The notes under the pieces: generated by a model
Told to the model about the DNA's origin: nothing
Databases searched by the model: none
The model's input: the letters and a program-made list of their open reading frames with translations, nothing else
Source: Rhodospirillaceae bacterium
GTDB taxonomy: Bacteria; Pseudomonadota; Alphaproteobacteria; Bin65
Direction of reading: 5' to 3'
DNA length: 64,000 nucleotides
NCBI GenBank assembly: GCA_009840595.1
Contig: VXNK01000070.1
Coordinates: 1 to 64,000, forward strand
Position numbers and translations under genes: made by a program
In this document: in pieces, positions 20,036 through 24,959 of the stretch
Position numbering within the stretch: the first letter of the stretch is position 1
How the letters are laid out: each line of letters begins with the position of its first letter

Positions 20036-20335
20036 TTACCCCAACACCGCCGCCAGCTTCATGGCGACGCCCATATCGCCGGTGACCTTGAGCTTGCCCA
20101 TCATAAAGGCGGTGGTCGGGTCGAGTTCGCCGGCCGCCATCTCCTTGAAATCGTCCAGCGACATGGCGACGACGCAGTCGGCGTCCGCGTCCTCGTTGGA
20201 GACGGCGTAGGGCTCGATTGTGCCGTCGAGATAGAGGCAGCCGTCGCCGCCGAAATCGAATTTCACCGTGGCGTCGAGGCCGGAGGCGTCGCCGATGCGC
20301 TCCCGCATCGCGGACGTGACGGCGGCAAGGGTCAT
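20036..20335 (-). CDS. SCP2 sterol-binding domain protein
   Basis: A 99-residue stand-alone SCP2 domain: ATVKFDFGGDGCLYLDG, then DADCVVAMSLDDFKEMAAGELDPTTAFMMGKLKVTGDMGVAMKL, the hallmark C-terminal motif. Such proteins form a hydrophobic tunnel and may carry acyl-CoA or lipids. It lies 55 bp downstream of the thiolase on the same strand and is probably co-transcribed, so a role with fatty-acyl intermediates is likely. Confidence 0.9.
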   Translation of the reverse strand: MTLAAVTSAMRERIGDASGLDATVKFDFGGDGCLYLDGTIEPYAVSNEDADADCVVAMSLDDFKEMAAGELDPTTAFMMGKLKVTGDMGVAMKLAAVLG

Positions 20336-20390: not shown

Positions 20391-21602
<1,212 letters not shown>

Positions 21603-21710
21603 GGGGCGGGGTCCGCGATGGGGAAGCCGGGAATCGCCGAAGATATAGCGGGCGAGCCTGCGCAGGGGAAGCGCGGCATGGGGCGGCGGCACCACAGTTT
21701 TCCGACTGCG

Positions 21711-21739
21711 TTGCCGCCGGTGCGGGCCGTCGCTATGGT
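21711..21739 (+). promoter_or_regulatory. Predicted promoter of ubiX, possibly giving leaderless mRNA
   Basis: TTGCCG (21711-21716), a 17-bp spacer and TATGGT (21734-21739). A start 7 bases past the -10 box would fall on or next to the ATG at 21747. Much of the element matches the predicted hflK promoter (31144-31172): TTGCCGCCGG, then CGTCGCTATG in both. Confidence 0.45.
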
Positions 21740-21746
21740 CGCGGCC

Positions 21747-22391
21747 ATGAGCGGTACGGGAAAAAGCCCGGGGCAGAACGCCGGCAAGCGGCTGATCGTC
21801 GGTCTCAGCGGCGCGTCGGGCATCGTCTACGGCGTGCGGGTGCTGGAGGCGCTGCGCGGCACCGGTGTCGAAACCCATCTCGTGATGACGAAATCCGCCG
21901 AAGTTACGCTCGCCTACGAAATGACGGCCAAGGTGGCCGATATCCACGCGCTCGCCGATGTCGTCCATCCGGTCCACGATATCGGGGCGGCGATTTCGTC
22001 GGGCTCGTTCCGCACCGAGGGCATGATCATCGCGCCCTGCTCGGTCCGCACCATGTCGGAGATTGCGGCCGGCACGACGGCCAGCCTGATGACCCGCGCC
22101 GCCGACGTCGTGCTGAAGGAGCGCCGCCGCCTCGTGCTGCTGGTGCGCGAGACGCCGCTCCACACCGGCCACCTGCGCACCATGACGCGGCTGTCCGAGA
22201 TGGGCGCGATCGTCGCGCCGCCGGTGCCGGCCTTCTACCAGCGGCCGGAAACCGTCGACGATATCGTCAACCAGACGGTCGGCCGGGCGCTCGATCTGTT
22301 CGGCTTCGATCTCGGCCTGGTTAAGCGCTGGGGCGAACCGGCGGCGGACGGCGGCGTCGGCAAACCGGCCCGGAAACCCGCCAAATCCTGA
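21747..22391 (+). CDS. ubiX: Flavin prenyltransferase UbiX
   Basis: A 214-residue flavoprotein that prenylates FMN to make prFMN, the cofactor of UbiD-type decarboxylases. Seen: [19 protein letters not shown] (FMN/prenyl-phosphate site), [30 protein letters not shown] and the C-terminal [24 protein letters not shown]. The N-terminal ~14 residues and C-terminal ~20 ([10 protein letters not shown]) are extra. ATG 21747 was chosen over 21735 because it lies close to the predicted transcription start. A UbiD-family gene follows 171 bp downstream. Confidence 0.95.
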
Positions 22392-22562
22392 TCGGCGGTC
22401 CGGCGCCATTCCGAGCGAGGGCTGCGCCCTTTCCCGCCTTGACCGGTGCGGCATTTCGTCGGAAGAGAGACCGCTGATCGAGGGATGCGCGGCACGACGT
22501 CTGACAGAATCGCCCGGAAACCAGTCTGAAGAAGAACGGGCGGCGAGCGAAACGACGAGGCG

Positions 22563-24959
22563 ATGGCGGCAACCCATATTCACGACCTCGCGCTGATCGT
22601 CGAGGATCTGGAGCGCAGCGGGCGACTCGCCCGTGTTTCCAGCAGCGTCGATCTTCAGCACGATCTGGCCGGCCTCGCCGCCGAACTGGAGAGCGGGCCG
22701 CGCGCCGTCCTGTTCGAGAAGATCGCCGGCCACGAATGGCCGGTGCTGACCGGCCTCTACTGGTCGCGCGAATTGCTGGCCGACCTGTTGCGGCGCGAAG
22801 AGCGGACGCTGCCGCAATACGTCTCCGACTGCATCCGGCAATGGCAGCAGGCGCCGGTCGATCCCGTGGTCGTGCCGACCGGCCCGGTCCTCGACGTGAC
22901 GGAGCCGGATATCGACCTCGCGAAGATGCCGATCCCGATCCATGCCCAGAAGGACGGCGGCCCCTATTTCGACGCCGCCGTGGTGATCGCGAAAGATCCC
23001 GAAACCGGCGTGCGCAACGCCTCGATCCAGCGCTTCCAGGTCGTCGCCAAGGACCGGATGCACGTCAACATCGACGCCGGCCGCCATCTGGAACTCTACC
23101 TGGAGAAGGCTGAGGCGCGCGGCGAAACCCTGACCTTCACGCTCAACTGCGGCGTCGGCCCCGGCCTGCATTTCGCCGCCGCCGCGCCGGCCGAGGCCGC
23201 GCCGGCGGATGCCGACGAGCTCGGCATCGCCAGCGCCTTCCACGGCGCGCCGCTCGAACTGGTCAAGGCCTCGAACGGCCATGACGACATGGTCGCCCAC
23301 GCCATGTGGGCGCTGGAATGCGAGATGGTGCCCGGCGAAGTCGCCGACGAAGGGCCGTTCGCCGAGGTTACCGGCTACTACGCCACCGTGGCGCCGCGGC
23401 CGGTCGTTCATGTCCGCAAGATCCACCGGCGCGCGCAACCGGTGTTCCAGACCATCCTGTCGGGCGTCGAGGTCTGGAACTCCGTCGGCCTGCTCGGCGA
23501 AGCCAACATCCTGCAACTGCTGCAAAAGCAGGTGCCCGGCGTCACCGACGTCTATATGAGCCACGGCGGCGGCGGCTTCTATCACTGCATCGTCCAGCTC
23601 GCCCAGAAGCGCCAGGGCTGGTCGAAGCAGGCGATCCTCGCCGCCTTTTCCGCCTTCCCGCCGCTCAAGATGGTGACGATCGTCGACGACGACGTCGACC
23701 TGCGCAGCGCCCAGGACGTCGAATGGGCGATGGCGACGCGGCTCGACCCGACCAAGGGCATCGTCACGATCGACGAATCCTTCGGCCACGGGCTGAACCC
23801 GTCCTTCCCGGACTATCTCGGCCCCAAGGTCGGCTTCGACGCCACCAAGCCCTATCCGCCCACCTGGGCCTATGAGCGGGCGACCTACAAACCCATGTCT
23901 CTGGAGGCCGTGGAAATGGTGCAACCGGATATCGTTCGCCGGGCCGCCGCGCCCAAACGGGAAGCGCAGCAGGCCGGCGCGTCGCGCGCCGAGGCCGAAG
24001 CCTTCGAAGCCTCCCTCGCCCGGCCGCAGCCTATCGACCTGACGCCGGTCCGGGCGGACAGCGCCGGCGGTGCGGCGGCCGCGTCCGGCGACCCGGATGC
24101 GTGGATCGCCCGCCCGGCGCCCATCGATCTGACGCCGGTGCGCGCTTCGGGTGCTGCCGGTGCAGGCAGGGCCGCGGCTGCCGATCCCGACGCCTGGATC
24201 GTCCGGCCGCCGGCCATCGACCTCGGACCGGGCCATGTAGCAGGCGGGGCAGCAGGCCGGACAGCAGGCAGGCAGGCGTCGACGGCGGCGGAAGACCCGG
24301 ATGCATGGATTGCAAGGCCGGCGCCTGTCGACCTCGGGCCGCGCCGCGCGTCCGAAGCGAACCGCCGAACGGTCGCCGCGGAGGACGCCGATGCATGGAT
24401 CGCCCGGCCCGCCCCCGCCGACCTGACGCCGGCCGGTGCTTCCGCCGCCGCGGCGCGCGAAACGCCGGTGGTGGAGGAACCGGCCGATGCGGACGCCAGG
24501 ATCGCCCGCCCGGCGCCTGTCGACCTCGGTCCGGTTCGCGCGGAAGAGGCGAAGCCGGCGGCGGCCGGCAAATCGGCGCGGCGCGCGGCGAAATCGGAAA
24601 AGAAGAAGAAAAAGGCGGCCGGAAAGGGCGCGGCCCGCGGCAAGGCCGGCAACGGGTCGAAAAAACCGGCGGCCCCCGAGAGCAAACAGGGGGAAAGCAA
24701 ACAGGGGGAAGGCAAACAGCGCGAAAGCAAGCAGGCCGAACCCAAACGGACCGAACGCAAACCGGCGGCCCGGAAAAAGCGGTCGGACGGCCAACCGGAC
24801 AAGGATGCCGGAGACGCCGCAGGGCCGGGCGCTTTCTTCGACGGCCCGGTCAGGCCGTCCGCGCCGCCGCGCCGGGTCGTGCGCCGGATTGCGAAGAAGG
24901 ACCGCGCCCTGCGCACCGCCGTGTCGCCGAAGGCCGGCAGTTTCTTTGGCGACGACTGA
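22563..24959 (+). CDS. UbiD-family decarboxylase with long repetitive C-terminal extension
   Basis: A 798-residue protein; normal UbiD enzymes are ~450-510. Residues 1-460 are a full UbiD domain: [20 protein letters not shown], a prFMN/metal-site region [22 protein letters not shown] (Glu residues expected in catalysis), [14 protein letters not shown], and [20 protein letters not shown]. Residues ~486-661 then hold six copies of a unit like [19 protein letters not shown] with variable Ala-rich spacers. Residues ~665-755 are Lys/Ala-rich with GESKQ repeats. The last ~40 residues ([30 protein letters not shown], ending FFGDD) look ordered. The catalytic domain alone could be UbiD itself or a decarboxylase for another aromatic or unsaturated acid. 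It is paired with ubiX. Confidence 0.85.
24018..24546 (+). repeat. Six protein-level repeats ([18 protein letters not shown]-type) in the UbiD-like gene
   Basis: Units begin near residues 486, 516, 547, 583, 613 and 646 of the UbiD-like protein. The core [D[15 protein letters not shown]] is conserved, while 10-18 residue Ala/Gly-rich spacers vary, so selection appears to act on the core. The first copy lacks the DPDAW part. A 15-bp repeat (GESKQ) lies further down near 24680-24740. Confidence 0.85.

Follow-up and report, generated by a model that had tools for sequence, protein, structure and literature searches.

The ubiD locus

The window (the whole 64,000-nt stretch of DNA from a Rhodospirillaceae bacterium, probably a sponge symbiont, that was analyzed here) contains a gene for a UbiD-family decarboxylase with a long C-terminal tail, which is preceded by the gene for the prFMN synthase UbiX and, on the opposite strand, by genes for a thiolase and a stand-alone SCP2-domain protein (Table 1).

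Table 1. Features of the ubiD locus in the window, with the corresponding tail region of a third genus (last line)
Feature	Coordinates	Strand	Evidence or comment
Stand-alone SCP2-domain protein	20039..20335	-	neighbor in three genera with Trp-motif tails (g1, g2, g3)
Acetyl-CoA acyltransferase (thiolase), divergent neighbor	20394..21602	-	same place in second genus
ubiX (prFMN synthase), directly upstream of ubiD	21747..22391	+	only ubiX match in window genome
UbiD-family decarboxylase ORF	22563-24959	+	ATG to TGA, single 798-aa frame
UbiD-family prFMN decarboxylase core, residues 1-455	22563..23927	+	Pfam, TIGR00148, 7P9Q alignment; bears R157, E263, E268, D171
Ala-rich lead-in, residues 456-484	23928..24014	+	alignment; end matched in second genus by TRAEVLAWEAG
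Half unit LARPQPIDL, residues 485-493, without DPDAW	24015..24041	+	motif search, alignment
Unit 1, residues 510-523	24090..24131	+	motif search, alignment
Unit 2, residues 541-554	24183..24224	+	motif search, alignment
Unit 3, residues 578-591	24294..24335	+	motif search, alignment
Unit 4, residues 608-621	24384..24425	+	motif search, alignment
Unit 5, residues 642-655, Trp replaced by Arg	24486..24527	+	motif search, alignment
Lys-rich linker, residues 656-753	24528..24821	+	15-nt tandem repeat inside, 24677-24762
Conserved end, residues 754-798; contains GAFFDG, terminates in GSFFGDD	24822..24956	+	comparison with relatives
UbiD tail of g3 orthologue, three DWDENRWWQRELEEMKRERS-like units and GGFFRG end	L039:6300-6899		

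We compared this locus with other members of the same genus (g1), with three further genera of the family (g2, g3 and g4) and with more distant relatives. ubiX was found directly upstream of ubiD in every tailed species examined, whereas in organisms with untailed orthologues of the enzyme it was located elsewhere, not near ubiD; most genomes had one ubiX match (two in G294). This association of the tail with UbiX was confined to one clade and may represent one evolutionary event. The thiolase neighbor was common to g1 and g2. The gene downstream of ubiD is outside any fixed unit, because its identity varied between species. In the seventh g1 member (G006), the order of the SCP2, thiolase and ubiX genes was retained and ubiD was absent from the locus; a glycosyltransferase-like gene, identified by eye (L109:206-1117), was present behind ubiX in its place. 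An antisense open frame of 1467 aa (minus strand, 20391-24794) passes through ubiD, its tail region included, and through ubiX, and reaches into the gene for the thiolase. Since the thiolase of relatives starts at MTDAYIFD (403 aa), the part of this frame beyond the thiolase is a by-product of GC-rich DNA.

Catalytic core and enzyme class

All three Pfam domains of the family (UbiD_N, PF20695; the Rift-related UbiD, PF01977; UbiD_C, PF20696) were over their cut-offs, with matches ending at residue 427, and so was TIGR00148. A PDB search identified 7P9Q, the indole-3-carboxylate decarboxylase of Arthrobacter nicotianae (AnInD; PMC8988006), as the nearest solved relative by sequence, which could be aligned over residues 6-454 (552.8 bits, E 5.7e-165, compared with 1e-73 for the second-best match). 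In AnInD, R155 and E266 are catalytic, and D169 contacts the substrate, its mutants being severely impaired (PMC8988006). As read from the alignment, R155, E261, E266 and D169 of AnInD correspond to R157, E263, E268 and D171 of the window enzyme. No variation was observed among ten aligned relatives in R157, E263 and E268, which constitute the E(D)-R-E catalytic triad, and D171 is the counterpart of the Asp needed for activity, a residue that may not be specific to the AnInD subfamily. Because AnInD is the nearest solved match and the counterparts of its catalytic Arg and Glu and of Asp169 are kept, the window enzyme is likely to act as an indole-3-carboxylate decarboxylase. Two other assignments were rejected: 4-hydroxy-3-polyprenylbenzoate decarboxylase, the UbiD of ubiquinone synthesis (PRK10922, 138 bits, cut-off 788), and the hydroxyarylic acid decarboxylase VdcC (NF041204, 249 bits, cut-off 650). 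Unlike the window enzyme, the solved AnInD chain has 461 residues and no comparable tail.

Structure of the C-terminal tail

The first-pass annotation, which was made from the sequence of the window, had placed the end of the catalytic domain near residue 460 and a continuation of about 340 residues behind it, in good agreement with the core (to about residue 455) and the tail of 343 aa (residues 456-798) delimited here. Beyond the UbiD core, one half unit and five full units are followed by a Lys-rich linker, and the last 45 aa of the tail form a conserved end. Thus, the repetition noticed earlier was real, but the number of copies was 5.5 (five full units and one half) instead of six. The 14-residue unit has the consensus DPDAWIxRPxPxxL, and the repeats are spaced in register by 90, 93, 111, 90 and 102 nt in the DNA. 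A comparison of 20 units, taken from two genera, showed no variation in I, P and L and hardly any in D, P, D, A, W, R and P. The repetition of the tail was far above chance: the best 16-residue self-match scored 338, compared with 121 ± 9 (maximum 149) in 60 composition-preserving shuffles. With regard to the end of the protein, the last 45 residues were 67-96% identical to the window copy among relatives, so that conservation of this part was evident, the ordered state proposed for about 40 of these residues being putative.

No match to the tail was found in the PDB, the tails of two sister genera had no Pfam match over the cut-off, and tblastn searches of plasmids with either the core or the tail gave no match. 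AlphaFold2 prediction of the full protein gave a mean pLDDT of 38, a value that carries little weight since the known core also failed (10-row alignment), and the FoldIndex of the repeat region alone was slightly positive (0.15). Based on low-complexity composition and the absence of both Pfam or PDB matches and predicted structure, we infer that the tail is intrinsically disordered. The first-pass annotation knew of no such architecture, which agrees with our limited comparison of libraries, PDB and literature; no UbiD with a comparable C-terminal extension was found in the literature covered, which included few subscription journals.

Distribution and origin of the tail

Seven members of g1 were examined, and the tail was kept in all six species that carry the gene; in the five other than the window species, four tails were complete and that of G005 was split over two contigs. 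Close relatives with a UbiD of about 470 residues, named by the first-pass annotation as one case against its reading, were absent from the genus, and such stops occurred only in other families. Those of these five with a named record derive from MAGs labeled Rhodospirillaceae or Alphaproteobacteria, part of which are sponge-associated, and bin65 was obtained from the sponge Aplysina aerophoba (PMC5649159). In the second genus (g2, represented by G007), a half unit and four full units of the same motif were followed by the contig end. In the third genus (g3), a different Trp motif (D-W-D-E-N-R-W-W-Q-R-E-L) occurred in three copies, and the tail ended in GGFFRG; its core was 72% identical while the motif was completely changed. 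In the fourth genus (g4, G009), a 170-aa tail without evident repeat was observed, with ubiX next door.

Untailed orthologues were found in other families only (Stella sp. ATCC 35155, G011, G088, G134, G237, G294 and SI053). Their cores were 65-73% identical, but a stop followed within about 50 residues of the core. In the enzyme tree, all nine tailed enzymes formed one clade, delimited by a supported branch (97/96), and a draw of 398 genomes of the phylum contained no further close core. These sequence comparisons indicate that the tail was gained within one alphaproteobacterial family, in one clade. The untailed orthologues G088 and G237 terminate with short Gly-Phe peptides (GGFKGGGM and GAFNGAAM) similar to the Phe-Phe end of the tailed enzymes. 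From these few sequences, a Gly-Phe terminus may be older than the tail; in that case, the tail would have grown as a linker that separates the core from this terminus.

The Lys-rich linker showed a different pattern. Its basic composition was common to the species, but its sequence was not, and the GESKQ stretch emphasized there is a 15-nt tandem repeat at the DNA level. With 31% Lys/Arg and a net charge of +16 over 93 residues, and with its presence in the five complete species tails and the G005 fragment, the basic stretch might be thought to hold the enzyme by charge on a polyanion, such as the nucleoid, RNA or a membrane, the units serving as adapters or spacers. We consider this improbable: both sequence and length of the stretch drift freely, g3 has no comparable Lys block (the g2 contig ends before this region), and the conservation of the units would be left unexplained. 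Specific recognition through the stretch is unlikely because its sequence drifts.

Selection on units and spacers

In the two closest pairs, whose alignment is unambiguous, units and spacers were equal in synonymous divergence, but nonsynonymous change was less frequent in units than in spacers by a factor of 4-6. In one pair, 4 of 174 nonsynonymous sites had changed in units and 24 of 192 in spacers (p 2.5e-4); for pooled pairs the counts were 7/350 and 31/372 (p 1.6e-4). In most pairs, dN/dS was 0.13-0.20 for units and 0.36-1.2 for spacers, in support of the earlier view that selection rather than noise had shaped the repeats; the exception was the short partial pair G004-G005 (37 unit codons), with a unit dN/dS of 1.06. 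Unit copies within one protein differed mostly at synonymous sites (pS 0.40-0.62, pN 0.05-0.13), and they are therefore old and held by selection, not recently copied DNA. The tail is real and selected.

A non-adaptive origin, in which slippage in GC-rich DNA produced a low-complexity extension that was tolerated, would account for the tandem repeat in the linker, for a dN/dS near or above 1 of spacers and lead-in in one pair, and for the repeat-less tail of G009 within the family. However, the units and the end are constrained and the spacers between units are not, and the unit copy number and the end were retained in the complete tails of the genus; hence such an origin appears quite unlikely.

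Between clades, synonymous divergence of the tail (window 24015-24956) was 0.3-0.7 and exceeded the values for the core and neighboring genes (about 0.13-0.3) by a factor of about two to four, which suggests turnover of units, recombination or misalignment. For this reason, and because units are partly shuffled between clades (e.g., WIVRPP occurs in full unit 2 of G000 and in full unit 3 of G001), dN/dS values between clades are approximate.

Search for compartments

The cargo of Family 2 encapsulins consists of otherwise ordinary enzymes with a long disordered extension in which short motifs are conserved (PMC8346489), a similarity that raises the question of whether the tail targets the enzyme to an encapsulin or a bacterial microcompartment shell. 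In contrast to such cargo, the window enzyme has no matching shell protein, an unrelated motif and more copies of it. Within the family, encapsulin (PF04454) was found only in G010 (L073; G010:C348:1649-2404; classical type, E 7.7e-91), a genome without such a UbiD gene, and encapsulin targeting was thus rejected; PF19307 (SrpI-type encapsulin) gave no match, its positive control being silent as well. Microcompartment shell genes (PF00936) occurred in six of the seven g1 members, all with the tailed enzyme, and were absent from the one that lacks it. However, none were found in other genera of the family, including g2 (G007, genome 75% complete), which has the motif, as well as g3 and g4, and ubiD lies outside the shell locus. 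Given this misfit across genera and the separation of the loci, we did not accept a link to the microcompartment, and a compartment of either kind seems highly improbable.

The microcompartment locus of the window genome (L078:8314-17898, contig C77) contains genes for a TauD-family dioxygenase, an aldehyde dehydrogenase and BMC-domain shell proteins (one BMC-H, one or two BMC-T-like and, by eye, an apparent EutN-like vertex protein), together with an AraC-type regulator and TRAP transporter genes. A possible role of the locus is to metabolize an aldehyde set free from taurine or a compound like it. For 'alphaproteobacterium bin65', which may belong to the same genus, tauD has been reported as upregulated by day in a sponge (PMC12879404).

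Possible function of the tail

The anatomy of the tail fits a disordered tail of short linear motifs, and we read it as a multivalent binding tail because conserved short motifs are combined with drifting spacers and no fold or family match. With moderate confidence, we propose that this prFMN decarboxylase uses the tail as a tether that would cluster the enzyme with a partner, most likely UbiX. According to this model, an AnInD-type decarboxylase would have gained a disordered C-terminal tail in one alphaproteobacterial family. The tail presents copies of a 14-residue linear motif, separated by Ala-rich spacers of drifting sequence, ahead of a basic stretch and the conserved Phe-Phe terminus. 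UbiD enzymes are hexameric, and since each chain has 5.5 units, a hexameric particle, expected here by homology to AnInD, would display about 33 motifs. Each motif might bind one partner site weakly, and many copies would provide avidity and thereby cluster the enzyme with its partner. UbiX, the maker of labile reduced prFMN, would be the first candidate because it is encoded directly upstream and must hand over this labile cofactor.

The main rival of this tether model is self-interaction, in which the units would bind back to their own UbiD, each docking in a groove of the hexamer, and would either control how the domains open or join hexamers to form a polymer. As expected for self-interaction, the motif was confined to the tailed UbiD protein: an HMM of the unit searched over 11 genomes of the family found only the tailed ubiD gene above noise, so that the partner proteins bearing the motif core that the first-pass annotation had envisaged did not appear, and neither the g3 Trp motif nor the 45-aa end was found in other proteins. 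In AnInD, moreover, the natural C-terminal loop packs against the neighboring subunit, where it touches the prFMN domain (PMC8988006). Nevertheless, the motif was wholly changed in g3 despite the similar core, and no core surfaces specific to tailed enzymes were found, the AlphaFold model being too poor for docking. We therefore regard self-binding as rather unlikely.

An extended form of the tether model is a long shot: the tail could serve as a built-in multivalent scaffold by which UbiD hexamers are brought together with UbiX in a cluster or condensate, so that labile reduced prFMN passes from maker to user, the motif having been re-invented in a sister genus. If true, it would represent a dedicated cofactor-delivery body. 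To our knowledge, it is poorly understood how cells transfer unstable reduced prFMN from UbiX to their UbiD enzymes. A selected repeated-peptide tail on a UbiD next to ubiX thus offers a handle on prFMN transfer, and the peptide could be used as bait. Enzymes with disordered short-linear-motif tails are known; what is new is such a tail, restricted to one lineage, on an otherwise ordinary UbiD. The family provides a clear bacterial case in which an ordinary metabolic enzyme, in one clade, acquired what appears to be a multivalent motif tail; the motif itself differs between genera.
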